From: a virus
Reading direction: 5' to 3' (one strand)
IMG/VR virus record: IMGVR_UViG_3300035703_000008
Span: 62,001-126,000 of that record
DNA length: 64,000 nt
How positions within the stretch are numbered: position 1 is the first letter of the stretch; every line of letters starts with the position of its first letter. This document shows positions 32,318-49,196 of the stretch, in pieces. A model generated the notes under the pieces. It ran no database searches. It was not told the DNA's origin and saw only the letters and a list, made by a program, of their open reading frames with translations. The position numbers and the translations under genes are program-made.

Positions 32318-33339
32318 AAAGAGTAAACTCATACACCAGCTGGCAACCCTTGGAAGAAGTCATCGTGGGCCGTGCCTATAGCCCCGACTATTTTGACTTC
32401 ATCGACGATGCCCAGGTCAGGAATCAACTGCAACAGATCCTGGCCGAGACCGAAGAAGATCTCAACAATCTTGCTCGTACCATCCAAGAATACGGAGCTG
32501 TAGTACAACGTCCTGATCTTCCCAGCAAGGACCAGTTCGTATGGTTCCAGACCGAAGGCGGTGGCGCACCACTTCCACCACTCACTCCTCGGGACTGGCA
32601 GATCACGCTAGGCGACAAGCTGTTGCGTGTGCTCAACATGAAAGAGCTGGATTCGATCTGTGCCCAGTACGGAGATCAAGTGATAAACCCGCATCGCAGC
32701 GAGTGGGACGAAGACTGCATACTCAACGGTGCATCAGCATCGTGCATCGTGCGTGTGGGCCGTGACGTGTTCTTTGACAATTCAGACTTCCTGCGCCCTG
32801 ATCAGACCCGTTGGATCGTTGACAATGTTCTAGGTCCCGAGTACCGCATACACGAAGCTGTCACCGACGGGCACGGCGATGCTGTGTTTGCCATCCTCAA
32901 GCCCGGTGTTCTCTTGAGTTCCAAGCATGATGTGAATCTAGACTTGGCACGCGACTTTCCGGGATGGGATGTATGCAAGATCTGGGATAGCTCGATCTGG
33001 GCAGCCATGGAAGTGGGCAAGTTCAAGTACGAAGAGTCACCAGGTGCATGGTATGTGCAAGGTCAGACACCCACAGCCGAGTTTACCAAGTTCGTGGATA
33101 CCTATCTCAACAAGTGGACCGGGTTCGTGGCAGAAACAGTGTTTGATGTCAACTGCTTGGTTCTCGACGAGTCTAACGTGATATTCTCGGCCTACAACAA
33201 AGAAGTGTTTGCCTACTGCGAAAAGCACGGTATCAACCCCATCATCTCAGAACTGCGTCACAGTTATTTCTGGGACGGCGGTATATCTTGTTGCACACAA
33301 GACATACACCGACGTGGTGGTCTTGAAACTTATCTTTAA
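32314..33339 (+). CDS. Glycine-amidinotransferase-like enzyme
   Basis: The fold is that of the amidinotransferase/pentein family. It opens with the typical SYTSWQPLEEVIVGRAY. The catalytic His is in VTDGHGDAVFA and the nucleophilic Cys near the end in GGISCCTQDIHRRG. Members such as GATM and StrB1 transfer an amidino group from arginine to an amine; others hydrolyse guanidines. In streptomycin-type pathways the acceptor is an amino-cyclitol. The neighbouring glycosyltransferase-like genes and DegT aminotransferase make an amino-sugar acceptor plausible (inference). Length 341 is usual. It overlaps the convergent SGNH gene by 4 bases. Confidence 0.85.
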   Translation: MKRVNSYTSWQPLEEVIVGRAYSPDYFDFIDDAQVRNQLQQILAETEEDLNNLARTIQEYGAVVQRPDLPSKDQFVWFQTEGGGAPLPPLTPRDWQITLGDKLLRVLNMKELDSICAQYGDQVINPHRSEWDEDCILNGASASCIVRVGRDVFFDNSDFLRPDQTRWIVDNVLGPEYRIHEAVTDGHGDAVFAILKPGVLLSSKHDVNLDLARDFPGWDVCKIWDSSIWAAMEVGKFKYEESPGAWYVQGQTPTAEFTKFVDTYLNKWTGFVAETVFDVNCLVLDESNVIFSAYNKEVFAYCEKHGINPIISELRHSYFWDGGISCCTQDIHRRGGLETYL

Positions 33340-34112
33340 CGAGTACCAAACCCGGGGTCTGGATACCGAACACAGTTGGGATTTACGATCTGGAATCCTG
33401 ACAGATCTATTTCCTGTACTCCGGGACGATAATCTTCAATGTCGTTTATTATTGTTTTGGCCAACGCCAGGTTGTTCTCAGCTCCAAAATGATTGTAGCG
33501 GTTTTCGTCTACAGAAATAGCCGATCTGATTTCATCATCGGTACCAGTTCTCTCTCCCACAGAAATCTGCACCAACGGTGTGGTATAGATCACACAGTCA
33601 TCGCCGAGATAATGTTGTATTTGTTGTGTTTCCGTAAAACAATGGAAGTGTATCACAGGAATGCCCGGAAACATCGACGACAATTCTCGAAACCATTGTA
33701 TCATTGCCCATTGGTGGAAATTCCCGTCCCAGAGATGGGTATAATAAAATTTTCTTGCCTTGACTACGTCTGGGTCACTGGGTCTCACTGCTAAATCATC
33801 GTGACGAACCATAAGGTCATTGGTATCGTGACTGATCAACATCCTCCCCCAATCAGTGTGCATACATACCACTGCTTTCAATCTCGATCGATCCTGTGGA
33901 TTTCGATCGAGATGGCTGGTCATATGATGTCGGCTATACCACCAACCTTTGCCAGCAAAACCAAATAGTAACTGATCAGCATCAAAGTGGTCGCAGATCA
34001 GGTCCTGATAAGAGGGGTAGTCCTTGGAATAAAGCTGGTCCTTGTGCCAGCAAGCCCGTCCAGTATTAGAGAAACTGTCTCCAAAAAATAATATAGCCGG
34101 TTTTACGAGCAT
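33336..34112 (-). CDS. SGNH-hydrolase-like protein
   Basis: The N-terminus AILFFGDSFSNTGRACWHKD has GDS with the Ser nucleophile. FGFAGKGWWYSRH is block II-like, and VVCMHTDWGR block III-like. The late VDENRYNHFGAENNLALA could supply the Asp/His pair. At 258 residues it is short for the group. It is the last gene of the minus-strand operon, overlapping the carbamoyltransferase by 10 bases. Removal or exchange of acyl groups on the decorated product is a plausible role (inference). Confidence 0.6.
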   Translation of the reverse strand: MLVKPAILFFGDSFSNTGRACWHKDQLYSKDYPSYQDLICDHFDADQLLFGFAGKGWWYSRHHMTSHLDRNPQDRSRLKAVVCMHTDWGRMLISHDTNDLMVRHDDLAVRPSDPDVVKARKFYYTHLWDGNFHQWAMIQWFRELSSMFPGIPVIHFHCFTETQQIQHYLGDDCVIYTTPLVQISVGERTGTDDEIRSAISVDENRYNHFGAENNLALAKTIINDIEDYRPGVQEIDLSGFQIVNPNCVRYPDPGFGTR

Positions 34113-35584
34113 ACTTTTACACCATACCGCTCCTGGAATCGATCAGCATCTGCACGATCATTGACCATGGGCTCTCCCCGGATATTGAGACTGGTGTTGA
34201 GCAGCATGGGACATCCTGTCAGCAAGAACCAGGCTTCCAATAGCTGTCTGATACCCGATCCATCAGCGGGCACGGTCTGCACTCGGGCTGTGTTGTCTAC
34301 ATGGCATATGGCCGGGAAACTGGCAGGATCTCGAACTCGTGCCACGATCTGCATGTAAGGACTGGAGGTCCACTTGTCAGGCATGTCAAAGTAGTCGTTG
34401 ACATGCTCTTCTAGGATCACTGGAGCAAAGGGACGGAACTTTTGTCTGCGCTTGATCTCATTGACACGATCTTTGATGTCAGGACCGCGTGGGTCAGCCA
34501 AGAGACTGCGATTGCCCAAGGCCCTGGGACCAAACTCAGCGCGACCGCTGGCCACTCCCACGATCTTATTGATCACTAGTTCGTCCAACAGAGGTTTCAC
34601 AGGATAGGCACCGGGTATGAGTCGTCCAAGGAAAGCGTCGCGCCAGTTGAGTTGCTTTCCATAACTGAGAGCCGCAGCACCGAGACTGCTACCAGCATCA
34701 CCGGGATTGGGCATGATCCATATGCGATCAAATACTTCGCCCAGTCTGCGATTGGCTACGCAGTTGAGAGCCACTCCGCCCATGTAAACGAGATTGGGAC
34801 TATTGGTGATGCGTCGAGCATGCTGCATCACGCTCATGATCAAGCGTTCAGTGATGTGCTGTGCGCAGGCTGCCACATGCACGTCTTCCATGTCATAGAC
34901 CACGTTGTCGGGCATGCCGATATGGAAATTGTGTTGTAGCTCGATGCGATCTAGATCAGCCACTACCTTGCGTTCTACAGCCTGATAGTCCTGGTAGCTG
35001 CCCCAGGCAGCCATGCCCATGGTGATGTATTCCTCGTCCATGGGACGGAGACCCACATGTTTGGTCACGGCCGAGTAAAACAATCCGATCGAATGCGGAT
35101 AACCTTGGCGCCACAAACGTAGGTACTGTGCGCGGCCTTGGCTGTCATACCAGGCTTGGTAGATCGAAATAGTGTCCATCTCACCGATGGCATCAATCAC
35201 CACCACGGCCGCGAATTCAAACGGAGATGTCTGGAATCCTGCAGCAGCATGGCTGAGATGGTGGCTGTGTCCTTGTATTCGTGCTGGACGTTGGAGCCAA
35301 TCGCCGAGATGTTTTTTTACTGCGCTCTTGACTGTCCAGGCACCAAACTCTCGTTGACCAGACCATAGTTGCTGGAGATTGTGCATCCACGGACGTTCGT
35401 AGAACGCGATGGTGTCAATGTCATAGTCGCAGCATTCACGCAAGAGATCAGGATGTATCTCTGCATCGTTCTTGCGTTTGCTGTATCTTTCGCTGTGTCC
35501 GGCGAATTCGATGTCACCATCGCTGTTGATCACGCTCACAGCAGCGTCATGGAAACCGGCACTGATTCCTAGATAGTGTTTCAT
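34103..35584 (-). CDS. NodU/CmcH-type carbamoyltransferase
   Basis: Features of the family are the N-terminal YLGISAGFHDAAVSVI, the metal-binding HSHHLSHAA (residues 106-114), and the ATPase-like VVVIDAIGEMDTISIY. GRAEFGPRALGNRSLLADPR and LLNTSLNIRGEPMVN follow. The enzyme makes carbamoyl-AMP from carbamoyl phosphate and ATP and carbamoylates a hydroxyl, for example on Nod factors, antibiotics or sugars. Length 493 is slightly short of NodU. The start is coupled to the 33-residue gene upstream by ATGA. It supports glycan decoration in this operon. Confidence 0.9.
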   Translation of the reverse strand: MKHYLGISAGFHDAAVSVINSDGDIEFAGHSERYSKRKNDAEIHPDLLRECCDYDIDTIAFYERPWMHNLQQLWSGQREFGAWTVKSAVKKHLGDWLQRPARIQGHSHHLSHAAAGFQTSPFEFAAVVVIDAIGEMDTISIYQAWYDSQGRAQYLRLWRQGYPHSIGLFYSAVTKHVGLRPMDEEYITMGMAAWGSYQDYQAVERKVVADLDRIELQHNFHIGMPDNVVYDMEDVHVAACAQHITERLIMSVMQHARRITNSPNLVYMGGVALNCVANRRLGEVFDRIWIMPNPGDAGSSLGAAALSYGKQLNWRDAFLGRLIPGAYPVKPLLDELVINKIVGVASGRAEFGPRALGNRSLLADPRGPDIKDRVNEIKRRQKFRPFAPVILEEHVNDYFDMPDKWTSSPYMQIVARVRDPASFPAICHVDNTARVQTVPADGSGIRQLLEAWFLLTGCPMLLNTSLNIRGEPMVNDRADADRFQERYGVKVCS

Positions 35585-35682
35585 TTGTAGATAAATGGAT
35601 CTCTTTTGCGCAGCTCTTTGAGCTTTTTACGATAACGTATTTCTAGCTTGATCTTGTTGATGAGATTGATTAACCATTTCAT
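35581..35682 (-). CDS. Conserved T4-like phage micro-protein (33 aa)
   Basis: I read the start as ATG 35682, preceded on the minus strand by AAGGA, rather than the longer frame from 35772. The sequence begins MKWLINLINKIKLEIRYRKK and ends KELRKRDPFIYK. It is an amphipathic basic helix with the conserved-looking ending DPFIYK that I associate with short proteins of T4-like cyanophages. The function is unknown. It is coupled to the carbamoyltransferase by ATGA. Confidence 0.65.
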   Translation of the reverse strand: MKWLINLINKIKLEIRYRKKLKELRKRDPFIYK

Positions 35683-35704: not shown

Positions 35705-36423
35705 TCAACTGGTGCGGCGCACCAGAGGAGTATACGATCCCGATCGTTGTTTCTGTTCCATGTCGGGATCATAGTAGGGCACAGCCGTAAAAGTCACTGT
35801 GCCTTTTTCGAGATGTCGATCACGACGCACAGCTAACACAGTCTCGAGATTATAGTAATTATACGCAGTATCGATGGGCTGTGTCCATTTCAGGGCTGAT
35901 CCTATGCAGGAACCATGCTGTATGTCATAGTTGGGCTCGACCATGCCGGCAAATTCCTGCCAATCGGTGTTCCAGTCCATGAGATAGGGCAAGATCAGCA
36001 GGCGCCAACCTGGTGCCATGCGAGCGCGCCATGGCCAATGCAGCAATCTAATCGATATCGCCAGGGACTGGTATCTACATTACCGTCGGGCTCGGTCCAT
36101 TGAGCATCTTCGATACGTTCGGCCCAAGGAGTACCGTGCAACATGTCAGGATGCAGTCGACCTCGGCTGAAATAGGTGTCGTAGCCGGTTATGGTTTCAG
36201 GCAAAGGTATGGTATAGCCCAGATGTGCTAGACCACGGAATCCCAAGCAGTGTCGTATGGTCCGATCATCGGACATGTCAATGGGTCGGTAGGCTCGCAG
36301 ATCCTTGAACCACCTCGGCAAATGATTGATCATAGGCGAGGGCGGAGGGCAATCCAGGTACTGTATGTCAGGATCTGTACAGTACTCCCAGGTCAGATAA
36401 TCATTTACTTGTAAATCCATCAT
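35705..36423 (-). pseudogene. Frameshifted phage hypothetical gene (two frames)
   Basis: The N-terminal part reads MMDLQVNDYLTWEYCTDPDI to NVDTSPW from 36423. The frame then turns to noise. The continuation AISIRLLHWPWRARMAPGWR, ending near TPLVRRTS, lies one frame over, down to 35705. The pieces join as TSPW-AISI if one G is restored in the CCCTGG-CGATA run near 36060. Together they give about 240 residues, of the PxGWRxL.PY type seen in phage proteins. It may be a sequencing slip, a real mutation or programmed frameshifting. The start overlaps the upstream stop by ATGA, so the gene was part of the operon. Confidence 0.6.
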
Positions 36424-37511
36424 CGTGCGATAATTTTTACTTGTTGTTCTCGATAGTCGGGATCGCTCCAGTGGTAATCGTACTCGCAACGAGCATCGCT
36501 GGTGGTCACTGACCACACATCGAGGTGATTGTCTAACATGGTCCAAATACGGCCGGCATCCGACGTACCAAAGCTACGATCGAGATCTACCTGTCCCACT
36601 TGTGGATGTCCGATAGTGAGACTCTTGTCTTCGGGGTCAAATCCATTGTCGCGAAGCCATCCACGGAAATCATCGAGACGATCTCGCTGCCACGGGAACT
36701 CGCCGGGATCCTTGCCCCACTCAATGTCAAAGTCAGCCGCAGCTTCGGTCTGGCTACGAAGGGTGGTGCTTACCAGTTCGCCGAGTCGGCTGTCGCGTCC
36801 TTCGTCGTTGAACACTTCCCAGTGGTGCTTGCCCACGGCCTTGTTCACGCCCACGAACACTCCGCCCAGGCTGCGATTGATAGTATCAACTCCGAACAGT
36901 TCGTAGTCTTCCTCATCGAGCACAAACCTCGGTGCATGCAACCAGCACATCAGTGTGCTGGGACGTTGCCATTCAGGAGCTTCGATCTCCTTGCGCCAGC
37001 TCAGGGCCCAGGATTCGAACTCGTGACACAAGAGATTCAGTTGTCTGATGTGCCAGCGCGTGGCTGGATCTGCTTTCAAGAAAAACTCGCTCATGGATCC
37101 ACTCACACCTTGAAGGTCTTCAAAGTATCTGTGCAGCCAATTGAATCGATCGTGGATGATATTGCGTCCCACATTGCGACCTGGCTCTGTGGGTTTATCG
37201 GTGATCACTGTCGACATGGTGAAATGATCGTCGATGTGATATCCAATGTTGGCAGCGTTGATGGCAGCGATACTGGCATTGACTTGATCCAGGATGTACC
37301 ATCCGTTGCGCTCGTGGTTAGTGAAACCAAAAAAGCAGTAGTTCTTTTCGAGATGCCGCTGATCGTCGAGAACATTGTTTAGAGCTGCCAGCCATTTGCG
37401 ACTGAGGCTGTTATCATAGACATCCACGTAGGTTTTAAGTAGATCGCCGGTGCGATGATCTCGCAATTCAAGCTCGACTACATCAAGCAGGTATTTTTTT
37501 CCACCAATCAT
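36420..37511 (-). CDS. Conserved phage-type hypothetical protein (363 aa)
   Basis: I choose ATG 37511 (MIGGKKYLLDVVELELRD), preceded on the minus strand by AAGGA, rather than 37562, which would overlap the radical SAM gene more. No catalytic motif is recognised. It contains VDVYDNSLSRKWLAALN early and LDEEDYELFGVDTINRSLGG in the middle. A tail EYDYHWSDPDYREQQ recalls the DYxW core of the giant repeat protein. It is translationally coupled to its neighbours on both sides. Confidence 0.6.
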   Translation of the reverse strand: MIGGKKYLLDVVELELRDHRTGDLLKTYVDVYDNSLSRKWLAALNNVLDDQRHLEKNYCFFGFTNHERNGWYILDQVNASIAAINAANIGYHIDDHFTMSTVITDKPTEPGRNVGRNIIHDRFNWLHRYFEDLQGVSGSMSEFFLKADPATRWHIRQLNLLCHEFESWALSWRKEIEAPEWQRPSTLMCWLHAPRFVLDEEDYELFGVDTINRSLGGVFVGVNKAVGKHHWEVFNDEGRDSRLGELVSTTLRSQTEAAADFDIEWGKDPGEFPWQRDRLDDFRGWLRDNGFDPEDKSLTIGHPQVGQVDLDRSFGTSDAGRIWTMLDNHLDVWSVTTSDARCEYDYHWSDPDYREQQVKIIAR

Positions 37512-38793
37512 ATATTTCCTTGTCATTTTCTTCAAGTATGCGTTCAAGTGTGAAAGTGTCATTGCGTATATGCTCGAGCTTCAATACACGTTGTTTGCCT
37601 CGAGTCAAGGCTGCTTGCCATTCCCCGGGCCATTGTTGTTCGAATGTGGGACGATTCTTGAGCTGCAGCAAAACATCTTTGAGAGCACCATTGGGCATGC
37701 CCGCGGTAAGTGTGTCTACCCTGGCATCCAATAGCTCACGAGGTAAAGCCAAAGGACTCATGACGATGTCGGGCGTAAAAGAAAATATCACTTTGGCCAG
37801 GATTTCCACGCCCATCTCCTGTGCCAAGGACTGTATGCGATCCACTTCAAACAAGCCCGGCAATGTGAGGGTAAAGTCGATCCTCATTTGCCGCGGATGC
37901 TGCGCGATGTCTCGACCTTGTTGGAAATGCTGTCGCCATTGCTGGTAGTCCAATCCTGTGCGGATGTATTCTCCAATCGCTCCAGTTCCATCCAGACTCG
38001 CGCAGATTTGCCAGTCTCGGATATGCCGGAGTATATCACTATAAAGGTTGACACCACGGTAATCAACCCTACTAAGATTAGTATTATATCTTGCATAGAC
38101 ACGCGGTCCATCTCCCAGTTCTACTATCCGCTGCATGTAGCGCCAGTGTTGTTCGTACATGAGGGGCTCACCACCCACCCAGTAGATCTCCTCCACACGG
38201 TGTTGCTCCACAGCTTCGGCGAATTCTCGCTCGATCTGCTCGTCCTGGAATCTGGTGATCTCTCGTTTGACTTCGGGGCGCATCCAGGTATTCTTGGGAT
38301 TGGCCCAGTCGATCATGTCGTGCTGTCTCTGTTCAGTTTCCCAGGCCGAGCTCAGCATGTCGCCGCAGGTCCTGCACTTGAAGTTGCAGAGATTTGAGAA
38401 TCTATAATCCCAGCTCACGGGCTGCATGCTGGTGCGCCCGTCAGCGTCGGTGGTTGCCCAGATGTCGTCGTACTTGTGCCGGAAAAGATGCCAGAAATAA
38501 GTGCGGTAGACATCAGTATTTAACAAACGATTGTTACAAACGTCGCACTCAGGCAAGGTTTCTCCGGCCATCATCCTACGACGCACTGATCGCATGTGCT
38601 CTGAATTCCAGTGCTGATCCAGGGTCAAAGGAATGTAGCGACCAGTGCCTGCGGCTGTGTCGATGTACTGCTGGAAGTTTTGGGCAGGCTCGCGACTGGC
38701 GCAGCACATCCTGCGTTCGGTCTGTGGACTCAGATAAGTGTGAGTCCACGGTGCCATGCACAGGGTATCGGGTCGTTGATCAGGAGGTAGCAT
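37483..38793 (-). CDS. Radical SAM protein with N-terminal twitch-like region
   Basis: CNFKCRTCG holds the cluster cysteines (136, 140, 143), and YWVGGEPLMYE the SAM-contact GGEP. The N-terminal region has LCMAPWTH, a CC pair (30-31), and CDVC (83-86) as in N_Twi_rSAM proteins. A late SLDGTGAIGEYIRTGLDYQQW matches the same block in its relatives. The substrate is unknown. It overlaps the downstream gene by 29 bases and the glycosyltransferase-like gene upstream by 14. It needs reductant, for which the Fpr-like protein at 462 is a candidate. Confidence 0.85.
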   Translation of the reverse strand: MLPPDQRPDTLCMAPWTHTYLSPQTERRMCCASREPAQNFQQYIDTAAGTGRYIPLTLDQHWNSEHMRSVRRRMMAGETLPECDVCNNRLLNTDVYRTYFWHLFRHKYDDIWATTDADGRTSMQPVSWDYRFSNLCNFKCRTCGDMLSSAWETEQRQHDMIDWANPKNTWMRPEVKREITRFQDEQIEREFAEAVEQHRVEEIYWVGGEPLMYEQHWRYMQRIVELGDGPRVYARYNTNLSRVDYRGVNLYSDILRHIRDWQICASLDGTGAIGEYIRTGLDYQQWRQHFQQGRDIAQHPRQMRIDFTLTLPGLFEVDRIQSLAQEMGVEILAKVIFSFTPDIVMSPLALPRELLDARVDTLTAGMPNGALKDVLLQLKNRPTFEQQWPGEWQAALTRGKQRVLKLEHIRNDTFTLERILEENDKEIYDWWKKIPA

Positions 38794-39760
38794 ATTCTAG
38801 TACCGGGCGTATTACACGATCAAAGTATCTTCCCATTACAAAATCATGGTTCCAAAAATGTTGTCGATTATGTTCGATCCTGTCCAGGGTCTCCCGATCG
38901 TATCCGCGATCAAGGTCGATTACATCCAAGTTACTCAACATGAGTTTTACACGATCGTACATGTCATTTATTTTATCGTAGCTCTCATCAAATATATTGT
39001 CGAATGTGACAAATCCCAGCGACTTGATATACTCCAAGGTGCCAGGGCAGGCTTGGATCAAAAACGGATGACAATAAGCGATGGGCTTAAAAGTTTTTTC
39101 AGTGATCCATGGACCAGCGCCGATGTAGGTCTCTGATACCACTGAACAAAAGGTCTTGTTATACCAGTCCCACTTTACGTACCTATCATTGAAATAGTGA
39201 AAAAGAGTTTCATGGTCCACGTCCCCAGGTAGAAAGATATTTTCGTCGTTGAAACTCCAGATCATGCGATCCAACCAAGGACCGGCTAGTTCTTTTAACA
39301 TACGCCGATGAAAACGAGTCTTTCGAATCGGCATCAATGCTAATTTTTCAAGTTGAAGGTCCCAGACTCTCAGATTTTCATAATGCTGATTATTCACATA
39401 CTCATTGTACCAAAAATACTCTTGGCATTCTAAAATATACCACCCGTCTTGGACGGCCTCACCGATGTTGTAGTTGAGAGCGATAGAATCGTCGTCGTCG
39501 CGGGGAGCTAGCCACGACGGTATCTCCCAGAGATTATCGAGAATCACCCGGTGACCATTGCTTCTTAGTTCTTTGAGTATGGGAGTCGGGCCATGTATGA
39601 TGCTAGAAATAAAAACTGTGTTTTTTTTATCGTAATGCCGGTTGGCATCATAAATCTCGATATTGAAATACTGCTGCCAGATTTTCCTGTGATGATCAAC
39701 GATCATCGACGGAGCCGGGTACTCCATTTCTCGAAACCAGATCAACTTGGGCTTGGTCAT
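38780..39760 (-). CDS. Glycosyltransferase-like protein, TEK-motif family
   Basis: The shared block reads WITEKTFKPIAYCHPFLIQA, then GTLEYIKSLGFVTFDNIFDE, followed by SYDKIN. Before it, FCSVVSETYIGAGP matches the ET-containing lead-in of the paralogues. At 326 residues it is the shortest intact member. It overlaps the radical SAM genes on both sides, so it is probably made together with them. Donor and acceptor are not predictable from sequence. The gene is more AT-rich than its operon neighbours, suggesting separate acquisition. Confidence 0.65.
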   Translation of the reverse strand: MTKPKLIWFREMEYPAPSMIVDHHRKIWQQYFNIEIYDANRHYDKKNTVFISSIIHGPTPILKELRSNGHRVILDNLWEIPSWLAPRDDDDSIALNYNIGEAVQDGWYILECQEYFWYNEYVNNQHYENLRVWDLQLEKLALMPIRKTRFHRRMLKELAGPWLDRMIWSFNDENIFLPGDVDHETLFHYFNDRYVKWDWYNKTFCSVVSETYIGAGPWITEKTFKPIAYCHPFLIQACPGTLEYIKSLGFVTFDNIFDESYDKINDMYDRVKLMLSNLDVIDLDRGYDRETLDRIEHNRQHFWNHDFVMGRYFDRVIRPVLEYATS

Positions 39761-40983
39761 CTACTGGGACCCGAGTACTCAATCGCTGCAGCCAATTCAG
39801 GATGATGATCGCAGAGATTTTGTTGGCGCTTCCAGTCAAGGTCTTCTACCTTCATCCTCAAGATGCTGCCATCGAGGCTGACACCACGCTCAATGAATTC
39901 AATCACTCGATCAAATTCAGCACGATGTCTGGCAGTGACCTGTGCCGATTTCAAGCGATCGATCACTGCTGATTTAGCAGCATCAGGCAGGGTGCCCACT
40001 GAAAAGTAGTAGGCTTCGTGCATCATATTCCAATACACAAAGTCGAAACCTTGCTGGTCAATCCAGTTGGCCAATCCTTCGAGATACATAACGTTAAAAA
40101 CATTTATAGTACTACAGACCTGTAGCTGTATGCGGCCAGGATGTCGAGATCTGAGATCCCGGAATCGCTGCAGATTTTCTTGCACCTCAGACCAAACAGC
40201 GTTGGTTCTTTGATATTCAAATCTCTCATCAAGGTCATCGATGCTGAATGCGATCTCTACTGTCTTGAAATGCCGCCAGATCTCTTCGGCTTCCTCAGGC
40301 CACTGAGTGCCGTTGGTGTTGTAGTGTATTTCTACGTTGCCGGCAATGCCACGCTCAACGATGCCACGCAAGAGTTGGAAGTGCTCGCGGATCATGAAAG
40401 GTTCACCACCGGTGAATTCGATGTAGCGGATCTGATCGATGATGGTGTCGATCTGGCTCCAGAACGTTTCGTTTTCCTTGGGCCAGGCACCCTTCTTCAG
40501 CATGGTGTAGTGGAAACTCTTTTTCTTGGTTTCTTCGTCGCGACTCACATATGTGAGCTCTTCCACGGCGAATGTACTGGAACTCCAGGACCCACAAATC
40601 CTGCATTTGAGATTGCAGATGTTGCCCAGCTTGAGATCAAGGAACATGAGAGGTTTGGCATCCACAGTCCACTCTTCGTCGGGGATCATGTGCTTGAGTC
40701 GATCCAAGGTATGCATGCGTTTGCTGGTACGGCCAGCACGTTCTTCGTTCCAGCACTTGCGGCAGGTGCGTGGCTTTTTGGCATCAAGGAACTCTTGGCG
40801 CAGCTGGATCATGTATCGACTCTGCTGTACTTGTCCGAGATCGGCTGTGCTGAGTTCAAACTTTTCTCCGGCATCGTCCACGATCTCTTCTTCGGCCAAG
40901 CAGCAAGGACGTACGGTACCGATCGGTGATGTTTCTAGGCTCACCCATGGTAGTACACAAAATTTGTCGTGTGGTATTTTCAT
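39757..40983 (-). CDS. Radical SAM protein with N-terminal twitch-like region
   Basis: CNLKCRICGSW supplies cluster cysteines 123, 127 and 130, and IEFTGGEPFMI the GGEP motif. The N-terminal FCVLPWVSLETSP with a CC pair (27-28) and CRKCWNEERAG (74-84) marks the N-terminal twitch region. LMFLDLKLGNICN leads directly into the core strand. The length, 408, is close to its relatives. Overlaps by ATGA with both neighbours. It is the closest match in the array to the free-standing gene at 2595, judged by the LEFDSLCN/LDLKLGNICN lead-in. Confidence 0.87.
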   Translation of the reverse strand: MKIPHDKFCVLPWVSLETSPIGTVRPCCLAEEEIVDDAGEKFELSTADLGQVQQSRYMIQLRQEFLDAKKPRTCRKCWNEERAGRTSKRMHTLDRLKHMIPDEEWTVDAKPLMFLDLKLGNICNLKCRICGSWSSSTFAVEELTYVSRDEETKKKSFHYTMLKKGAWPKENETFWSQIDTIIDQIRYIEFTGGEPFMIREHFQLLRGIVERGIAGNVEIHYNTNGTQWPEEAEEIWRHFKTVEIAFSIDDLDERFEYQRTNAVWSEVQENLQRFRDLRSRHPGRIQLQVCSTINVFNVMYLEGLANWIDQQGFDFVYWNMMHEAYYFSVGTLPDAAKSAVIDRLKSAQVTARHRAEFDRVIEFIERGVSLDGSILRMKVEDLDWKRQQNLCDHHPELAAAIEYSGPSR

Positions 40984-42269: not shown

Positions 42270-43593
42270 ACCAATCTTTCAGTCGTGGAAAAGTCGCGGC
42301 AAAGTCTTTGCCGCGACGTTGATCATACTGTTGATAAAACAAGCGAAAATCGTTGTGCAGTTTAGACATCTCGAATGCATCAGAATGCGGAGTCTTGACC
42401 ACATCAAGGTAGTCAACTAGTCTCTGTAAATGATTGATCTCGTGCTCGTGCATGTAATCACAACCTTTGTGGCGCACCATAAATTCAGCGAGACGATCCT
42501 TGTAATAGCTGCGCAATTCATCGGGCAGCACCAATGGCGATTGGAAGCTAGGGAACCGCAGGATGTTTAAGGTAAAGTTCACACGTTCGCGGCCGTACTG
42601 CTTTTTGAATTCGATCACTTGTTCGAGATACTCAGGCAAGCTGTCTAGACACAGGGCATTGATGGTACACATACTGTGTACGGCACGTATGTGATCGTGC
42701 TCTAGTAATTCTCGCATGTTGCCTAGCCAAACATTATAATCGATACCGTCTCGTATGTATTCGCTTTGTGCACCAACCGCTTCGTTGCTGGTATAGATTT
42801 CCACATGAGACAACCCAGCTACGCTGTCCAGGAACTCTAGGAGCCTTTCCTTTTCCAAGGCGAGGTTAGAGTTGATGGCCAATTTCGTCGAGCAGCGACC
42901 TTGATTCTCCTTGAACCAGTCAAGTAACTGCCACATATAGCCGGACATGAGCGGTTCGCCGCCGGTGATGCGTAGTTCTTCGAGCGTACGGTGTAGGTCT
43001 GATTCCCACCACTCAAAGAACGCGCGGATATATGGATTATCCTCACCAAAGCGATATAACTGGGCACTATCATGAGTGTGAGTAAAATGGTTTCGACCAT
43101 CAGATACCAGTCCCCGATAAGGACCGGAATTCTTAATATCCTTAACCCATGTACTAGAAAAAGCAGGATTACAGTAAGAGCAAGCCAGTTGGCAAGTGCG
43201 ATCAAAGGCAATTTCCAGCGTGCGGAGATTGACATCCACGCTTGGATCAAGTTGGCTTGCATGATGTAGAGTCTGGATCGGGTAGATTCGGCTTTTATAT
43301 ACGCGATCTGATATTGCGTCCCGCCCCATGTCTTCAATCTTCCAGCAATACTCGCAACCAGGTGGTCTTCGACCCGCTTGCATGTCAGCTCGATCTTGTT
43401 TTTTAGCTGGTGTATTGTGGAGAGCACGTGGATTGATCTGGACATCTTCTATACTTATTTTGTGTGCGGGAGGATGGTGGCAGCTGGTGGTCATACCGGA
43501 GCCGAGCCAAATGGTGGCATTGTACCATTTGGCGCCACAAAAACTGTCGGATATGGTGTCTAGCACCTGTTGTCGGAATTCTAGATCGTTCAT
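42241..43593 (-). CDS. Radical SAM protein, CHHPP subfamily
   Basis: I take ATG 43593 (overlapping the upstream TGA) as start. The core motif is CQLACSYCN (134, 138, 141), and LRITGGEPLMSG carries GGEP. The N-terminal Cys region differs from the preceding three genes. It has SCHHPPAHKISIED and CEYCWKIEDMGRD, the same subfamily as the gene at 44713. LGSGMTTS and LHNTPAKKQ also recur there. These may handle a related substrate. Length 450. Confidence 0.85.
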   Translation of the reverse strand: MNDLEFRQQVLDTISDSFCGAKWYNATIWLGSGMTTSCHHPPAHKISIEDVQINPRALHNTPAKKQDRADMQAGRRPPGCEYCWKIEDMGRDAISDRVYKSRIYPIQTLHHASQLDPSVDVNLRTLEIAFDRTCQLACSYCNPAFSSTWVKDIKNSGPYRGLVSDGRNHFTHTHDSAQLYRFGEDNPYIRAFFEWWESDLHRTLEELRITGGEPLMSGYMWQLLDWFKENQGRCSTKLAINSNLALEKERLLEFLDSVAGLSHVEIYTSNEAVGAQSEYIRDGIDYNVWLGNMRELLEHDHIRAVHSMCTINALCLDSLPEYLEQVIEFKKQYGRERVNFTLNILRFPSFQSPLVLPDELRSYYKDRLAEFMVRHKGCDYMHEHEINHLQRLVDYLDVVKTPHSDAFEMSKLHNDFRLFYQQYDQRRGKDFAATFPRLKDWYDSIQLQFS

Positions 43594-44729
43594 TGGCAAT
43601 GGGGTTGGGTAAACTTCTGTAGTCGATCGGGAAACTCGGCCTGAATCTGTGGCACGAGTGCATTCAAGTGTTGCTGATTGTATTTACACACCTCTCGACA
43701 AGCATCAAGGAAAGCCGAGAGGTCTTGGCGACAAAGATCCTCGACAATGTCGGTGATGCGTTCAACTCGTGCCTGATTGTCGTCGATGAGATCAAAACTT
43801 TCATCAATGACATGGTTGAATGTACGGAATCCTAGATCCTGCATGTCGCGATAAAAGCCTCGGTTGGCCACTGCTATCCAAGGGTGTGCCATGGCCAAGG
43901 GCTTGGCTATTTTCTCGGTGCGGAAACTATAGGGATAATCAAACACTGTTTCTGTGATCAAACTGAAATAGGTATCGATATAGGGTTCAGGACGGAGATA
44001 GATTTCGCCCCAGTCATCACCAAATAGATGGAACTTGACAAACTGAACTCCTTGAGGCACGGGTTCAGCTAGTTTAGCACGATATGTGTCAACTTCATAG
44101 TTTTCTGGCAAATACTGTACGGGACGATCCTCTAGCATGAGATTGCGCCCGTCTTGTTCCAGTCGAAGAATGCGACTGTTAAATCCTTTTCCTTCGAGAC
44201 AACTCCATAGACTCTGATCCAGCAGTCCCGAACTACGGAATCGTTCCATGAGATACTTGCGATGTGGTCGTGCCCGACCATTCAGGAACAGGAACTTGTA
44301 GGGCTTGATCTTTTTCTTGAAGATTTCACCTGACAACAAAAATGCCGAATGATTTTCGTGATATTTTAGGACTTGGGCCAGGAATGCATCATAACGTAGA
44401 CATGTGTAACCGGGTTCCATGTCTCCGCCGCCGATTACCAGTATGTGTCCTGCTAGTATGAGATCTTCCAGGCCCATCATGCGCATCTGCCAACGAAAGG
44501 TTTCTGATCCCTCGGCTGGATTGCTGATGATTACCAATGATCCTGGTCGTTGGGCTAGATCTCGCACCTTGGATGTGTTTTCTTTGCACTGCTGTCGTCC
44601 AATGAGATAGATGCTGTTGTCTACTGGTTCATGGGAAGAGAAATCCCAGAATTCGATGTCGGCTAGATGCGCTATCAGCTCGTAGACTTCGCAGTGAGTA
44701 TCGATGATGAGTTTACGACCGTTGAGCAT
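43590..44729 (-). CDS. Glycosyltransferase-like protein, TEK-motif family (TEKIAKP variant)
   Basis: I place the start at ATG 44729, which has GGAGGAG about 10 bases upstream on the minus strand. It begins MLNGRKLIIDTHCEVYELIA. The shared block reads FRTEKIAKPLAMAHPWIAVA, then MQDLGFRTFNHVIDESFDLI. FKFLFLNGRARPHRKYLMER precedes it, a typical acceptor-side region in this group. It lies between two radical SAM genes, overlapping the CHHPP-type gene at its stop. Sugar transfer is inferred, not shown. About 379 residues. Confidence 0.62.
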   Translation of the reverse strand: MLNGRKLIIDTHCEVYELIAHLADIEFWDFSSHEPVDNSIYLIGRQQCKENTSKVRDLAQRPGSLVIISNPAEGSETFRWQMRMMGLEDLILAGHILVIGGGDMEPGYTCLRYDAFLAQVLKYHENHSAFLLSGEIFKKKIKPYKFLFLNGRARPHRKYLMERFRSSGLLDQSLWSCLEGKGFNSRILRLEQDGRNLMLEDRPVQYLPENYEVDTYRAKLAEPVPQGVQFVKFHLFGDDWGEIYLRPEPYIDTYFSLITETVFDYPYSFRTEKIAKPLAMAHPWIAVANRGFYRDMQDLGFRTFNHVIDESFDLIDDNQARVERITDIVEDLCRQDLSAFLDACREVCKYNQQHLNALVPQIQAEFPDRLQKFTQPHCQ

Positions 44730-46122
44730 GTGCTCTGCACTCCTCCCACCAGGCACGCATCTCAGGGAACGTGGCTAGAAAATTGGTGCCACGACGGCGA
44801 TCATGTTCGTTGAAAAATCTATAGAAGTCGGCCCGGGCCACAATGTTGTCTTGTTCTTGGCCTCGACGCATCCAAGCAAGATCCCGATCCAGACGCTGGC
44901 ATTCGTAGTCTTTGAAGCCCTGAAAACGTGTGGCTTCGGTTTCTTGGTTGGTCAGCATCCAGTCACGTATACGCTCCACCCGGGCGGCATAGCTCTCGGG
45001 CAGGATCTGCAGGCTCTGCCAGGCAGGTTGTCGCAGTACAGGTGTGTCAAACCAAACTCGCTGATAGGTCTTGCTGTGACGTCGGCGTAGATTCAGGATC
45101 TCGGCCAGGAATCGATCCAGGCTGGTCACTGATAGATTGTTCATGGTGATGATGAATGTGAGGCTGCTGCGATATGGAACTTGTTCAAGGAACTGTTCCA
45201 CTCGGCTCCACATGAGATCAAAGTCCAGACCATGCCGCATGTATTCAGCCTGTGATCCCCAGCCATCCACGCTGACATATTGCATGTAGTGTTCTACACG
45301 ATCCTGTTCGGTGATGCGTTTGACATAGTCGAGATATCGATCAAACAGTTTCTGCTCCACTGAGAAATTGGATGTGACATTGAGATGCAGTCGGGGATTG
45401 AGATGTTCCAACACATAATCAAACACACGATAGGTGTTGCGGTCCATCAATGGCTCGCCGCCGGTCATGCGGAAGTGTTCCAGTTCAGGATACAGGTCCG
45501 GCCACCAGCGCCAGAATGCTTCCACATATGGATTGTGTTCTCGATGTGGGATAGGTCTGCGTTCGCCTTCGAAATGAGTGAGTTGGTTGTGCGGCACACT
45601 GGTAGGGTAAGCACCTTCGCGCTGTATCTCGTCCATCCAACTGCTGGAGAATTGCGGGCTACAATAGCTGCACCGGAGATTACATGCCGAGTTGAAATTG
45701 ACTTCTACATAACTGGGTGTGGCATCTTGGTCCCAGGGCGCCGACATGATGGCATGGAAATCTCGTGCTGCCCAGGGCTCGCCAGATCTGTAATGACGAT
45801 CACTGAGCTTGCCATTGTCCTCCATGTTCCAGCAGTATTGACATTCTGGGGGACGTTGACCTTGTTTCATCATCAGACGCTGTTGCTTTTTATGGGCAGT
45901 GTTATGGATACCACTGGCGCTGCGACCGATATCCTCGAGAGTGATGCGATGCAAGGGAGGGTGATAGCAACTGTTGGTATGCCCTGTGGTGAGATGCAGG
46001 CTGACCTGTTTCCATTTGGCCAAGCACATGGCGTCGCCGAGGTCCTCCTTCATCTGCTCAGCGGAACTCAGAAACTTGCTCTTTCCTTCTTGTGTGACTT
46101 CGTCACCTTTGTTGTTTACCAA
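44713..46122 (-). CDS. Radical SAM protein, CHHPP subfamily
   Basis: The core motif is CNLRCSYCS (147, 151, 154), and FRMTGGEPLMDRNTY carries GGEP. The N-terminal SCYHPPLHRITLEDIG, HNTAHKKQQ and CQYCWNMEDNGK mirror the gene at 42241. VEVNFNSACNLR leads into the core. At 469 residues it is the longest of the six. Its start overlaps the upstream GT-A-like gene by 7 bases. This gene and 42241 likely arose by duplication and flank one glycosyltransferase-like gene. Confidence 0.86.
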   Translation of the reverse strand: MVNNKGDEVTQEGKSKFLSSAEQMKEDLGDAMCLAKWKQVSLHLTTGHTNSCYHPPLHRITLEDIGRSASGIHNTAHKKQQRLMMKQGQRPPECQYCWNMEDNGKLSDRHYRSGEPWAARDFHAIMSAPWDQDATPSYVEVNFNSACNLRCSYCSPQFSSSWMDEIQREGAYPTSVPHNQLTHFEGERRPIPHREHNPYVEAFWRWWPDLYPELEHFRMTGGEPLMDRNTYRVFDYVLEHLNPRLHLNVTSNFSVEQKLFDRYLDYVKRITEQDRVEHYMQYVSVDGWGSQAEYMRHGLDFDLMWSRVEQFLEQVPYRSSLTFIITMNNLSVTSLDRFLAEILNLRRRHSKTYQRVWFDTPVLRQPAWQSLQILPESYAARVERIRDWMLTNQETEATRFQGFKDYECQRLDRDLAWMRRGQEQDNIVARADFYRFFNEHDRRRGTNFLATFPEMRAWWEECRAHAQRS

Positions 46123-47039
46123 CCTTCTTGTCTCCGGATCACATCAATCTCACGCACCATGATGCCTTGGTTATGCCAGTTACCACGATAGTGATGTTTG
46201 AAGAAACGGCTCTGGTCGGGATTCAGGGTGCATACTGGAAGATCCAACTGTGTTCGTAGAGCATTGGCATAGGTCTCGGCGGCTTCGTATGGGTCCACAT
46301 ACTGTTCTACCTCCCAGAGTTTTTCCAGGGCATCAAACCATTGCACTTCTCGATAGTCCCAGTCCGTGAGCATGGTCATGTATGTGCCCATCCTGGCGCC
46401 CATTATGGCCCAGATACCATGTTCGACGTCGTCTCCTACATTGTGCCACACTGTGAGATTGTCGAGATTCCTGTGATGTACACGATCGCGGAATTCGCTG
46501 AGACTGGGTCTTGCACCTTTGTTGAGGCACATCTTGACACCTTCACGGAAACCCGCACGCCAGGCATGCTTGGCGGATCCGTTGGGATGGGTAGTAGAAT
46601 AACAATCATGCATGGGCCAATACAAGGGATCGAAACAAAATTCGACCACTGTCTCGTCCCTGCCATCAGTGTTTTCATGTGTTTTCATACCAAGCACAAA
46701 CTCGCGTGTCCACGAACTCATACCACCGTTACCGTACATGAGTCCATTGATCTCATTCCTGGCTCGCCAACGGAACACAGCCTGTTCCCATTCTCGGGTA
46801 GGCATGTCCAAGATCAGGTTAAAGAACTCAGGGTCAGGCATGTTGTCGCCATCGATGAGTATGAATCGTTCGGTGTCCGAAGCTTCGGCTGCGGCCTTGT
46901 GTGCAGCATCTGAGCCCTTGACTCCATCTACACGTTTGGCCCAAGGTACCATGTTGCGTATTCGAACCCAGAATTCTTCTTTCTGCGGTTCGTCGTAGCT
47001 GAGATAGATACAATCAAGATCGGCTACATCAATTTTCAT
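46116..47039 (-). CDS. GT-A-fold glycosyltransferase-like protein
   Basis: It starts MKIDVADLDCIYLSYDEPQK. A Rossmann-like N-terminal half leads to VDGVKGSDAAHKAAAEASDT and then FILIDGDNMPDPEFF. DGD is a DxD-type metal/donor motif, followed by FRWRARNEINGLMYGNGG. This order resembles the GT-A glycosyltransferase fold. The C-terminal module of the giant repeat protein (24708) aligns with it by eye, but lacks the DGD. It is therefore the best candidate for the ancestral active form of that module (inference). 307 residues; coupled to both neighbours. Confidence 0.65.
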   Translation of the reverse strand: MKIDVADLDCIYLSYDEPQKEEFWVRIRNMVPWAKRVDGVKGSDAAHKAAAEASDTERFILIDGDNMPDPEFFNLILDMPTREWEQAVFRWRARNEINGLMYGNGGMSSWTREFVLGMKTHENTDGRDETVVEFCFDPLYWPMHDCYSTTHPNGSAKHAWRAGFREGVKMCLNKGARPSLSEFRDRVHHRNLDNLTVWHNVGDDVEHGIWAIMGARMGTYMTMLTDWDYREVQWFDALEKLWEVEQYVDPYEAAETYANALRTQLDLPVCTLNPDQSRFFKHHYRGNWHNQGIMVREIDVIRRQEGW

Positions 47040-47373
47040 AGGTTTTCTTCCATTTCGTATGAGCAGTGACAGGATCTACTACAACGCTGACATCCCTCGG
47101 GTGGCACGGTGTGCCCGAATCTCTGGGTCTCAATTTTCCCACCCCAGTGCCAGTGTCTAACAATACCAGTCGACCATCTACCACACGCACATTCCTGGAG
47201 CTTTGTGCATAAGTGGCCTGGTCGATGTCTATGTAATTACCGGGCAGATCTTCTTGGCTGTAGAATAAAGGATTGCCTTGATCATCATAGTATAAGCGAT
47301 AAAGAATCGGCTGTGCTTCTTGGCCTTGGGTAAGACGCGCTACCTCGGCCCAGAAATCTTCGGCTTCGCTCAT
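47029..47373 (-). CDS. Hypothetical protein (114 aa)
   Basis: I choose ATG 47373, which overlaps the upstream TGA (ATGA), rather than an earlier in-frame start at 47454. It begins MSEAEDFWAEVARLTQGQEA and has ILYRLYYDDQGNPLFYSQED. It ends in a Lys-rich tail (HTKWKKTYEN). The length and strand pattern suggest a small beta domain. No family recognised. It overlaps the GT-A-like gene downstream by 11 bases. Confidence 0.6.
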   Translation of the reverse strand: MSEAEDFWAEVARLTQGQEAQPILYRLYYDDQGNPLFYSQEDLPGNYIDIDQATYAQSSRNVRVVDGRLVLLDTGTGVGKLRPRDSGTPCHPRDVSVVVDPVTAHTKWKKTYEN

Positions 47374-48104
47374 GTCCAATCCTTGTGATAGTAGTGTACC
47401 AGCCCCCACTGTGCCACAGTATTGATCCTTAGACCTGGCTGTGTTTTTTCCCACACCAGTTCTTGACGCCAGTCATCAGTGGCTGTGCCGATGATGTTCT
47501 TTTTCATGTGTACTATGCGTGGAGTCACTGATGCAGGTAAGGTCACTGTTTCAGGACCAAGTATCTGTGCAGCCATGGCATAAACCACGTCTGTGGTGGG
47601 TTCATTTTCGGGCATGATCAGCATGCTGCGAAACTTGGACCAGTTGTCAAAGATCGATCTCACCGTGGCAAAAAATTGCTGTGCAGTGCGACTCAGCCTC
47701 CAGTAGGTCACAGCATTGTAGACATCGGGCAACCCATTGGCGTCAAACACCCGTCGATACCTGCGGTCTTTGCCGACTTGATCATAGTAGTCGCGGCAGC
47801 CTTGGCTGATGACCACATCCCGGTGTTCAAACAAGGCCCAGAGATGATCTATGGCACTGGCACACCACATGTCGGCTTCCAGCTTGATGGTCTGTCGATA
47901 GGGAGAAATCTCGAACATCTGCCAGTCATTGGCGAATCCGCCTTGATCACCGTGGGGAAGTTGATCCCGGGTGACTATGGTTATGTCGGCCGCGGGATGC
48001 CATTCGCGTATGGTGCGTGCCAGTTGTTCAGCGCAGGCCACATAGTCGCAGTCATCGGTGTTGATGGCCGGTATCAGATAGCCACGTTCAGCTCGTACTG
48101 GCAA
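47370..48104 (-). CDS. Glycosyltransferase-like protein, GT8-type fold
   Basis: It begins MPVRAERGYLIPAINTDDCD. The early DITIVTRDQLPHGDQG and TIKLEADMWCASAIDHLW sit where GT8-type enzymes carry the DxD metal site; here it is EAD. GLPDVYNAVTYWRLSRTAQQ and the final LVHYYHKDWT resemble the acceptor-binding and C-terminal His region of that fold. With EAD in place of DxD, activity is uncertain. 244 residues, coupled to both neighbours. Confidence 0.55.
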   Translation of the reverse strand: MPVRAERGYLIPAINTDDCDYVACAEQLARTIREWHPAADITIVTRDQLPHGDQGGFANDWQMFEISPYRQTIKLEADMWCASAIDHLWALFEHRDVVISQGCRDYYDQVGKDRRYRRVFDANGLPDVYNAVTYWRLSRTAQQFFATVRSIFDNWSKFRSMLIMPENEPTTDVVYAMAAQILGPETVTLPASVTPRIVHMKKNIIGTATDDWRQELVWEKTQPGLRINTVAQWGLVHYYHKDWT

Positions 48105-48894
48105 TGATGTCTCCTAGATGTTTTTTGCCCATGGCATGGAAATCATGATCGGCGATGTCAACCCATCGGGCGCGTCCGTCTTGAGCTCGATAGTCTACTC
48201 GGAAATGATCGTCACTGATCTGGCTCAGTCGGGAATCCGGCATTACCGATGCTAGATCCCAGGCTATGGCATTCTGGTTTCCTGTGTGGCCCGACAGTAT
48301 ATTGAGCGCGATGCTGAGAGCATGATCGTTGCGATAGGTACGACTGTTGATACCGTAGAGATCTTTGTAATGTACCCAATTTTCTTTGACCATGTTCATG
48401 ACACCAAAAACGTGATCAGCCACTGCTCCTTTGCGGAACATCATCACTGTGGCCCAAGACATGGGCATGCGAACACGTCCAAAATAATTGAGATCTTCGT
48501 GACCGGGCCTGGCAGCCACATCATAGGCCCAGCGATGGCAGAGAAAGTCTTCGCTGCTGTCTAACAACAGTCTCAATCGATCGCTGGCCACTACATAGTC
48601 AGCGTCTAAGACCAGGGTCTGTCGCCAGGGAGTGAACAAGTTGGCATCACAACGATTGTGATTGTACCAGGTCACAGAAGCGTCGAGATCTTCGAAGTAT
48701 CTACGAGTATCGTGTTCATAACGCTCGATGTCCAAGACTCGATCAAACATCTTCATGCCGCGAGTACTAGCATCAGTGACCACACATACTGGGATATCTA
48801 GATGTCGATGTATGCGTTCAGCGCTCCATGCAGCCATCCGTAGATAATCAATGCCTTCGTTGTTGATGGCGAAGATTAGAGCACCAACACTCAT
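48088..48894 (-). CDS. Glycosyltransferase-like protein, GT8-type fold
   Basis: I choose ATG 48894, which overlaps the upstream TGA, over the longer frame from 48951. It begins MSVGALIFAINNEGIDYLRM. PVCVVTDASTRGM is followed by the DxD-type motif TLVLDADYVVASD. SWATVMMFRKGAVADHVF and a late ADHDFHAMGKKHLG are like GT8 acceptor and metal-binding regions. It is similar in order to the neighbour at 47370, and the pair likely came from duplication. The presence of DAD makes this the more probable active member. Sugar unknown. Confidence 0.62.
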   Translation of the reverse strand: MSVGALIFAINNEGIDYLRMAAWSAERIHRHLDIPVCVVTDASTRGMKMFDRVLDIERYEHDTRRYFEDLDASVTWYNHNRCDANLFTPWRQTLVLDADYVVASDRLRLLLDSSEDFLCHRWAYDVAARPGHEDLNYFGRVRMPMSWATVMMFRKGAVADHVFGVMNMVKENWVHYKDLYGINSRTYRNDHALSIALNILSGHTGNQNAIAWDLASVMPDSRLSQISDDHFRVDYRAQDGRARWVDIADHDFHAMGKKHLGDIIASTS

Positions 48895-49196
48895 CGCTTT
48901 TTCTGCGCTTCCTGGTGCTCCAACAGCCAAGCTGTCATCTGCTCTTGCCATCTCTGTTGGCTCATGGCCATGAGCTGTTCTACTTCTACCCGCACAGGAT
49001 TGTCATAGAGATCCAGGATCACTGCCTGCGGCTCGACACAGGTCTTGAGCAGGATCTGCAATTCCGGTCCGGCTCGCCACATGCCTCCAGCATAGGCAAA
49101 CAGCATTTTGGCGAGATATTTTTCTTTGAGCACACGTTTTTGAGCCTCGTGGTCAAAACGGGCGCGAGCATTTTCTACTAGTTGATCAGTATTCAT
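48891..49196 (-). CDS. Hypothetical helical protein (101 aa), first gene of the minus-strand operon
   Basis: It begins MNTDQLVENARARFDHEAQK and ends LEHQEAQKKR. The sequence is almost entirely helical, with many Glu, Gln and Lys (VEQLMAMSQQRWQEQMTAW). It contains one Cys-Val-Glu-Pro stretch. It could be a scaffolding or coiled-coil partner of later gene products, but nothing identifies it. It is followed by ATGA overlap. The 74 bases between it and the tail gene upstream hold a terminator-like hairpin and no obvious sigma70 promoter. Confidence 0.6.
   Translation of the reverse strand: MNTDQLVENARARFDHEAQKRVLKEKYLAKMLFAYAGGMWRAGPELQILLKTCVEPQAVILDLYDNPVRVEVEQLMAMSQQRWQEQMTAWLLEHQEAQKKR

Follow-up and report, generated by a model that had tools for sequence, protein, structure and literature searches.

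A conserved operon of radical SAM enzymes and putative glycosyltransferases beside the tail-fiber genes of uncultured T4-like phages

Introduction

What might a phage build with five radical S-adenosylmethionine (SAM) enzymes, several putative glycosyltransferases (GTs) and a carbamoyltransferase encoded in one operon beside its tail-fiber genes? This question is raised by the minus-strand genes at 33336–49196 of a 64,000-nucleotide stretch of viral DNA (hereafter the window, to which all coordinates refer), corresponding to bases 62001–126000 of the 208,932-base IMG/VR virus record IMGVR_UViG_3300035703_000008. The record encodes a gp23-type T4-like head protein, a terminase, the DNA polymerase PolB, a tail sheath and a single-stranded DNA-binding protein (phrog_138, 36964, 262, 10581 and 1192); it comes from a metagenomic T4-like phage, whose family is large, uncultured and from water. 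Since 2010, the modules with multiple radical SAM (rSAM) genes found in T4-like phages and giant phages have been regarded as "highly unusual", with no established explanation (PMC2853527, PMC12390700). A first-pass annotation of the window proposed that the operon builds a heavily decorated glycan or glycopeptide on the virion or the infected-cell surface. The analysis described here indicates that the operon is real and conserved, that similar multi-rSAM modules are known but lack an explanation, and that the proposed chemistry is plausible; we put the probability that the operon encodes a glycan pathway at about 0.75.

Gene content and conservation

All 17 open reading frames (ORFs) reported on the minus strand at 33336–49196 are present, real, tightly packed and conserved. 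Overlaps of 4–29 bases had been described for nearly all neighbors; with longest-ORF starts, gaps run from -4 to -80 bases for most pairs, several of the larger overlaps reflect start-codon choices, and five junctions are exact 4-base ATGA-type overlaps. The gene count also changed in composition. Two listed ORFs, N (35995–36546) and O (35705–36046), are both contained in a single ORF of a relative (L018) and constitute one gene, N+O (35705–36423), with a frameshift near 36050 that is either a sequencing error or a real lesion, and an ORF of 33 amino acids had been overlooked; with N and O merged and this microprotein added, the operon again comprises 17 genes.

The gene order ZZ-Z-Y-X-A-B-C-D-E-(cargo)-F-(cargo)-G-H-I-J-(cargo)-L-M-(cargo)-P, in which ZZ to X are virion-type genes and the operon begins at A, recurs with few exceptions in about 100 viral loci, some of them near-identical contigs. 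The genes thus do co-occur elsewhere, contrary to the outcome that the first-pass annotation had set as a refutation, and the composition of the operon is not due to chance. A scan with I yielded 21 loci, and a scan with E, which is 63–84% identical in relatives, yielded 496 matching stretches in viral_contigs, the top 80 of these being retained; in terminase-bearing records, the expected site of E lies about 96 kb away, outside most contigs. In tblastn searches, E, K and M found no match among isolate phages, and I matched only the Vibrio phage K566, K567 and a marine single-cell contig.

A further scan was anchored on Z, chosen so that loci were not selected on the enzymes. Z (51860–52465, minus strand) is a 201-residue virion-region protein (phrog_11259, E 1.3e-72) with 74–100% identity in relatives. 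Where a Z-anchored locus extended far enough downstream, A was found in all 64 loci, B in all 61, C in all 58 and E in all 52, and D in 47 of 56. These counts make the operon a fixed neighbor of the fiber genes among the closest relatives of Z; the sample covers the top 80 among at least 600 matches and says nothing on distant relatives. Contigs assigned to a Rhodobacteraceae (L117) and a Neisseriaceae (L120) metagenome-assembled genome (MAG) also hold parts of the phage cassette and are likely misbinned or integrated phage.

Four slots in relatives (E/F, F/G, J/L and M/P) carry interchangeable cargo. Its commonest members are proteins with a TEK motif (see below), and it further includes additional rSAMs, sugar epimerases, a UDP/GDP-sugar dehydrogenase, a GHMP kinase, a cytidylyltransferase, a cupin/FdtA-like protein, a hexapeptide transferase, a Stf0 sulfotransferase, an APS-kinase-like protein and SGNH proteins. 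This cargo is a toolkit of unusual decorated sugars and the strongest argument for a glycan product. In the window itself, the epimerase and the aminotransferase noted to the left of the operon are borne out as W (22696–23670, plus strand), an NAD-dependent sugar epimerase/dehydratase (PF01370, E 2.4e-42), and V (23612–24739, plus strand), a DegT/DnrJ/EryC1 sugar aminotransferase (PF01041, E 6.6e-58); the DegT family is present in 10 of 10 large records.

A fixed set of radical SAM enzymes

The five rSAM proteins predicted in the operon, F (44713–46122), H (42241–43599), I (40980–42269), J (39757–40983) and L (37483–38793), all on the minus strand, belong to the N-terminal Twitch rSAM family of NCBIfam. 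Against the full NF033640 model, with a curated cut-off of 170 bits, they score 282–418 bits: F, 314.6 bits (E 1e-93); H, 302.7 bits (E 4e-90); I, 417.8 bits (E 5e-125); J, 325.9 bits (E 4e-97); and L, 281.7 bits (E 1e-83). An alignment of 22 sequences revealed that the CxxxCxxC motif (C149, C153, C156), the Twitch cysteines (C34, C53, C95 and C98) and a GGEP motif are invariant. A tree of 106 sequences placed the five proteins in five separate clades, each with Shimodaira–Hasegawa-like approximate likelihood-ratio test (SH-aLRT) support of 98–100, although the deeper joins are unsafe because of long branches.

Enzymes of this family also occur outside the operon: the 208,932-base record encodes 13 NF033640 proteins, and 19 related records encode 8–21 each. 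A sixth N-Twitch rSAM of the window lies at 2595–3911 (plus strand), with seven more elsewhere in the record, and a FAD/NAD-binding oxidoreductase of the ferredoxin-reductase type at 462–1202 (plus strand) may serve as an electron donor for rSAMs. The genome scan that served for the rSAMs used the profile of I alone. Among cellular sequences, those closest to F, H and I come mainly from Bdellovibrionota MAGs, where tandem arrays of 4–6 rSAM paralogs had no recognized GT nearby; five Bdellovibrionota or unclassified MAG contigs (L122, L123, L124, L114 and L115) carry tandem N-Twitch rSAMs of this kind, with no recognized GT neighbors.

Glycosyltransferase-like proteins

Of the five GT-like proteins attributed to the operon, three were described as GT-A/GT8-like and two as TEK-motif proteins; the GT calls have motifs and weak profiles behind them. 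B (48088–48951, minus strand) and C (47370–48104, minus strand; phrog_1903) are homologous (hhalign 98%), and acidic motifs typical of GT-A enzymes are invariant in both, D-A-D in B and E-A-D in C. In B, a putative GT-A/GT8-like enzyme, GT8-like DxD and HxxGK motifs are represented by invariant DAD and DFHAMGK (alignment A7; D116-A-D118, H272..G275-K276); in C, a putative GT-A-like enzyme, the invariant stretch is KLEADM (alignment A8). B had no Pfam match, and PDB sequence searches found no relative of B (best E 0.005, not a GT) or of C.

E (46116–47039, minus strand), the most conserved protein of the operon, carries an invariant DGDN motif and is putatively of GT-A type. No significant Pfam, PDB-sequence or fold match was obtained for it, and the profiles of E and C did not match each other. 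Its structural model (predicted local distance difference test score, pLDDT, 62.7) is weakly GT-A-like and too poor for fold assignment, with IspD, HddC, GtrB and LH3 as non-significant matches. The C-terminal domain of U (24708–30062, minus strand), a 1784-residue protein of "DYTWHPNPLDPPYIYHF" repeats, is homologous to E (hhalign 97%) and lacks DGDN; U may be a giant protein that binds sugars and has no catalytic function.

The TEK motif is common to G (43590–44756, minus strand), a putative GT-B-type enzyme, K (38780–39760, minus strand) and, as had been predicted for the adjoining plus-strand unit, S (31157–32317) and T (30061–31173) (alignment A3). These proteins had no Pfam match, no PDB sequence relative and no significant GT-B profile or structure match, and their role as GTs, like that of E, is inferred.

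Decorating enzymes and a microprotein

P (34103–35584, minus strand), previously called a NodU-type carbamoyltransferase, indeed matches both Carbam_trans domains above cut-off (PF16861, 171.8 bits; PF02543, 114.9 bits) and phrog_1601 (E 1.5e-94), and its PDB relatives are NovN, GdmN and TobZ. The predicted amidinotransferase is likewise upheld: R (32314–33339, plus strand), of AGAT/StrB1 type and related to AGAT, HsvA, SxtG and StrB1, matches AGAT with an E-value of 2.4e-24, and the pentein-type catalytic residues Cys326 and His187, along with Asp189, are invariant among eight aligned sequences. The SGNH-like assignment of Q (33336–34112, minus strand) is retained in part, for the GDS motif is present and a Q-type relative matches GDSL/DUF6071, whereas the window copy itself had no Pfam match. 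Amidinotransferase-like, SGNH-like and carbamoyltransferase genes also lie together in a marine single-cell virus contig (L410, MH319727), a record that was matched by rSAM I as well.

The overlooked microprotein, MKWLINLINKIKLEIRYRKKLKELRKRDPFIYK (35581–35682, minus strand; 33 amino acids), is followed by P, with a 4-base overlap of its stop codon and the ATG. Its C-terminus, RKRDPFIYK, stays the same although synonymous codons differ among the copies; invariance of these final residues is partly by construction because the scan pattern required them, and the first 37 matches, found with a looser pattern, all had the same end. Widespread in viral contigs, the microprotein is coupled to a carbamoyltransferase or, in some loci, to an SGNH gene. 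The stop-start overlap was 4 bases in 99 of 149 occurrences, and the readable downstream ORF was a carbamoyltransferase in 94 of 128. Among pattern-drawn loci, P was nearby in 95 of 119 and an rSAM in 32 of 119, indicating that the microprotein partners P more than the rSAMs. It is probably a dedicated partner of P, with possible roles as subunit, anchor, acceptor, or leader peptide controlling P via coupling or arrest. The microprotein was not found beside cyanophage and pelagiphage carbamoyltransferases (six stretches), and tblastn against isolates gave no match, although low-complexity masking may hide it. In two loci (L004 and L364), a gene that by its sequence is S-adenosylmethionine-synthetase-like directly follows the microprotein with a 4-base overlap; its product may supply SAM to the rSAMs.

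A separate transcription unit beside the fiber genes

Upstream of the operon on the same strand lie four virion-type genes: ZZ (52632–63983), a virion structural protein of 3783 residues (phrog_10938, E 1.5e-211); Z; Y (50273–51808), a tail-fiber/virion-type protein with a Peptidase_G2-like C-terminus; and X (49271–50263), a Thr/Ser/Gly-rich protein of 330 residues that had no family match and that, from its sequence and its position adjoining the operon, is a putative virion or fiber protein. A T4-late-promoter-type site, TATAAATA (51832–51839, minus strand), precedes Y. It is the sole match in the window and was found upstream of Y in 38 of 82 loci (background frequency, 0.028 per kb); the promoter pattern CTAAATA gave no match.

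The boundary between X and A is marked differently. An intrinsic terminator, AAAGGGCC-CTAGT-GGCCCTTT (49229–49249, minus strand), is followed by a sigma-70-type promoter, TTTACT-17-TAAAAT (49203–49231, minus strand), whose -10 element ends 6 nucleotides before the ATG of A. The hairpin, with a GC-rich stem of 7 bp, occurs in 52 of 60 unique upstream regions (shuffled mean 0.4), the -10 element in 52 of 60 (shuffled mean 4.3), and the -35 and -10 elements together in 45 of 60 (0.64). Shine-Dalgarno-like sites precede X in 57 of 63 loci, Y in 55 of 57 and Z in 47 of 54, yet A in only 5 of 65; given this and the proximity of the -10 element to the ATG, a leaderless transcript is predicted for A (48891–49196, minus strand), the first operon gene, which has no such site in the window and encodes a conserved protein of 101 residues. 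The terminator and sigma-70-type promoter before A, together with the late-type site before Y, set the enzyme operon apart as a separate unit. It is probably transcribed by a host-type polymerase, so that the enzymes would be made before the late fiber proteins X and Y, a timing read from the promoter types.

Two further operon members stand apart from the enzyme families. D (47029–47373, minus strand) is a conserved small protein of about 114 residues, with an internal ATG taken as the start (alignment A9), and M (36420–37562, minus strand) is a phage-specific protein (alignment A2) with a confident model (pLDDT 85.5), for which no PDB fold match and no relative in a PDB sequence search were found, BFVD giving only uncharacterized phage proteins. 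Farther to the left on the plus strand, an MFS transporter, two AMP-binding acyl-activating enzymes and a hexapeptide transferase lie in a row at 7722–12590, plausibly an N-acylation cassette, and a DUF2201 metallopeptidase/VWA protein (18338–19627, plus strand) lies near an ATPase (15626–16717; phrog_1297), the two being a MoxR/VWA-like pair.

What the operon may build

The glycan pathway proposed earlier is well supported by the family assignments, by the recurrence of the operon and by its sugar-nucleotide and sugar-tailoring cargo; the virion or cell surface as its target remains a proposal. A possible sequence of events begins with W, V and the cargo enzymes (GHMP kinase, UDP/GDP-sugar dehydrogenase and cytidylyltransferase), which, going by their families, would supply unusual, partly amino, sugars. 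From their motifs, the GT-A-like proteins B, C and E and the four with the TEK motif (G, K, S and T) would transfer these sugars sequentially to a soluble acceptor. The five rSAMs, observed as a fixed set and not interchangeable, would each perform one fixed radical step on the glycan or its protein anchor, such as dehydrogenation, epimerization, deoxygenation, or C-C or C-S bond formation. Finally, P would carbamoylate the product, R would turn an amine into a guanidine, and cargo enzymes in relatives would sulfate or acetylate it, the groups that accept these decorations being conjectural. On the virion, the finished structure would hide the adhesive surface or alter its specificity.

None of the operon proteins A–Q has a transmembrane-like segment, and families for lipid-linked initiation and flipping (PF02397, PF00953 and PF01943) were absent from ten records of 209–347 kb, with controls positive in 9–13 of 14 genomes. 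Both observations favor a soluble acceptor or the late decoration of an existing molecule, and the linkage to fiber genes, combined with the finding of no export machinery, favors virion proteins. A virion protein as acceptor is nevertheless a tentative view, to which we give somewhat less than even odds; a soluble glycan-building and tailoring pathway in the host cytoplasm with the fiber proteins X and Y as likeliest acceptors comes close to an even chance without reaching it. More specific still, and improbable as a whole, is a guanidinylated, carbamoylated, radical-tailored glycoconjugate on virion adhesins, with the microprotein as a subunit of P or as an acceptor or carrier. We know of no virus for which a modification of this type has been described.

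Several points weigh against a virion-directed glycan pathway. Its substrate, product and acceptor are all hypothetical, the GT assignments of E and the TEK family lack significant structural or Pfam support, and the records may be incomplete. The Bdellovibrionota arrays, with no recognized GTs, imply that F, H and I need not act on glycans. The sigma-70-type promoter means that the operon need not be co-transcribed with the fiber genes, and a separate promoter of this type accords no less well with action on the host.

This last point leads to remodeling of the host surface, in which, early in infection, the enzymes would extend or decorate the cell's lipopolysaccharide (LPS) core or its capsule, thereby preventing superinfection or keeping progeny from adsorbing again, and the linkage to fiber genes would reflect receptor-binding proteins co-evolving with receptor changes. 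A separate promoter of host type, where the fiber genes have a late-type one, suits such action, the variable cargo resembles serotype-like diversity, and the GTs of pelagimyophages have been read in this way (PMC7029224). The operon, however, encodes no membrane protein, and the lipid-linked initiation and flippase families are missing from the ten large relatives. GTs of the LPS-core type are soluble or peripheral, so that the missing membrane machinery is not decisive, and we regard host-surface remodeling as less likely than virion decoration but a close contender.

Less probable by a good way is a peptide product resembling a ribosomally synthesized and post-translationally modified peptide (RiPP), with the rSAMs modifying a peptide (e.g., the microprotein, A or D) before glycosylation and carbamoylation. 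Many SPASM/Twitch rSAMs act on peptides, and the operon holds both a near-invariant microprotein of 33 residues and the conserved small proteins A and D as fixed members. The microprotein, though, occurs with the carbamoyltransferase rather than with the rSAMs in the pattern scan and has neither Cys nor an obvious leader-core split.

Hypermodification of DNA, in which the GTs, rSAMs, carbamoyltransferase and amidinotransferase would tailor a base modification shielding the phage genome, has precedents, in that GTs and other enzymes hypermodify the DNA of other phages (PMC12783734), and a host-type promoter would fit early synthesis. The thymidylate synthase/hydroxymethylase family PF00303 was nonetheless absent from the ten large records (controls positive in 9 of 14), which lowers the likelihood of this reading, although chemical handles besides hydroxymethyl exist (PMC12783734). 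PF18723 and PF12851 likewise had no match in the large records, but neither did their positive controls. The fixed linkage to fiber genes would also go unexplained, and we consider DNA hypermodification very improbable. Equally improbable is auxiliary metabolism, in which the module would aid the host during infection (for instance when oxygen is low) rather than make a phage-specific structure, as proposed for the five-rSAM module of CP220/CPt10 (PMC2853527). Interchangeable metabolic helpers would not be expected to keep an invariant order beside virion genes, to come with GTs and decorating enzymes, or to include five rSAMs of fixed orthology.

Returning to the glycan pathway, the fixed five-rSAM core, the fiber linkage and the promoter boundary yield testable predictions on acceptor and timing, in a clade of at least hundreds of contigs with 8–21 N-Twitch rSAMs per large genome. 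If correct, radical chemistry would join the ways in which phages dress their virions or hosts, and the operon would offer new rSAM enzymes that act on sugars. The microprotein–carbamoyltransferase pair constitutes a second, independent lead.

Relation to known systems

No paper describing the operon or the microprotein was found in the mainly open-access journal literature searched. The earlier statement that no described phage system shows this combination was nevertheless too strong, given the CP220/CPt10 module (PMC2853527) and the rSAM cassettes and GTs of pelagimyophages (PMC7029224). The Campylobacter phages CP220 and CPt10 are T4-like, carry 11–12 rSAM genes, and possess an interchangeable module of five rSAMs with a glycine amidinotransferase, as well as two nucleotide-diphospho-sugar-transferase-like genes (PMC2853527). 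The CP220 amidinotransferase matches our A4 profile (E 1.7e-17). In contrast, its rSAMs are not of the N-Twitch type (best 30.9 bits against the NF033640 cut-off of 170), none of the profiles of B, C, E, M and the TEK proteins found a match, and a metabolic, non-essential role was suggested by the authors (PMC2853527). Because the CP220 rSAMs belong to another subfamily, the two are parallels of similar composition, not the same module.

The host recognition cluster of pelagimyophages likewise combines tail fibers, GTs and rSAM cassettes in the structural region of T4-like aquatic phages, but is hypervariable and nonsyntenic, whereas the operon described here has a fixed order and five orthologous rSAMs; the paper makes no mention of "carbamoyl" (PMC7029224). 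Vibrio phage K566 encodes six NF033640 members, yet the stretch searched had nothing matching E, M, B, C or TEK. The Bdellovibrionota N-Twitch arrays, the nearest cellular kin of F, H and I, differ from the operon in having no recognized GT homologues. The Aeromonas giant phage 332-Vera carries eight rSAM genes inside its structural cluster but is a chimallivirus, and the passage on these genes proposes no function (PMC12390700); with a T4-like marine genome containing 12 rSAMs (PMC5332604), it shows that the multi-rSAM puzzle is wider. Beyond phages, P and R belong to the same families as the NodU, TobZ and NovN carbamoyltransferases and the AGAT, StrB1 and SxtG amidinotransferases, which act in natural-product pathways, whereas here both enzymes are encoded by a phage.

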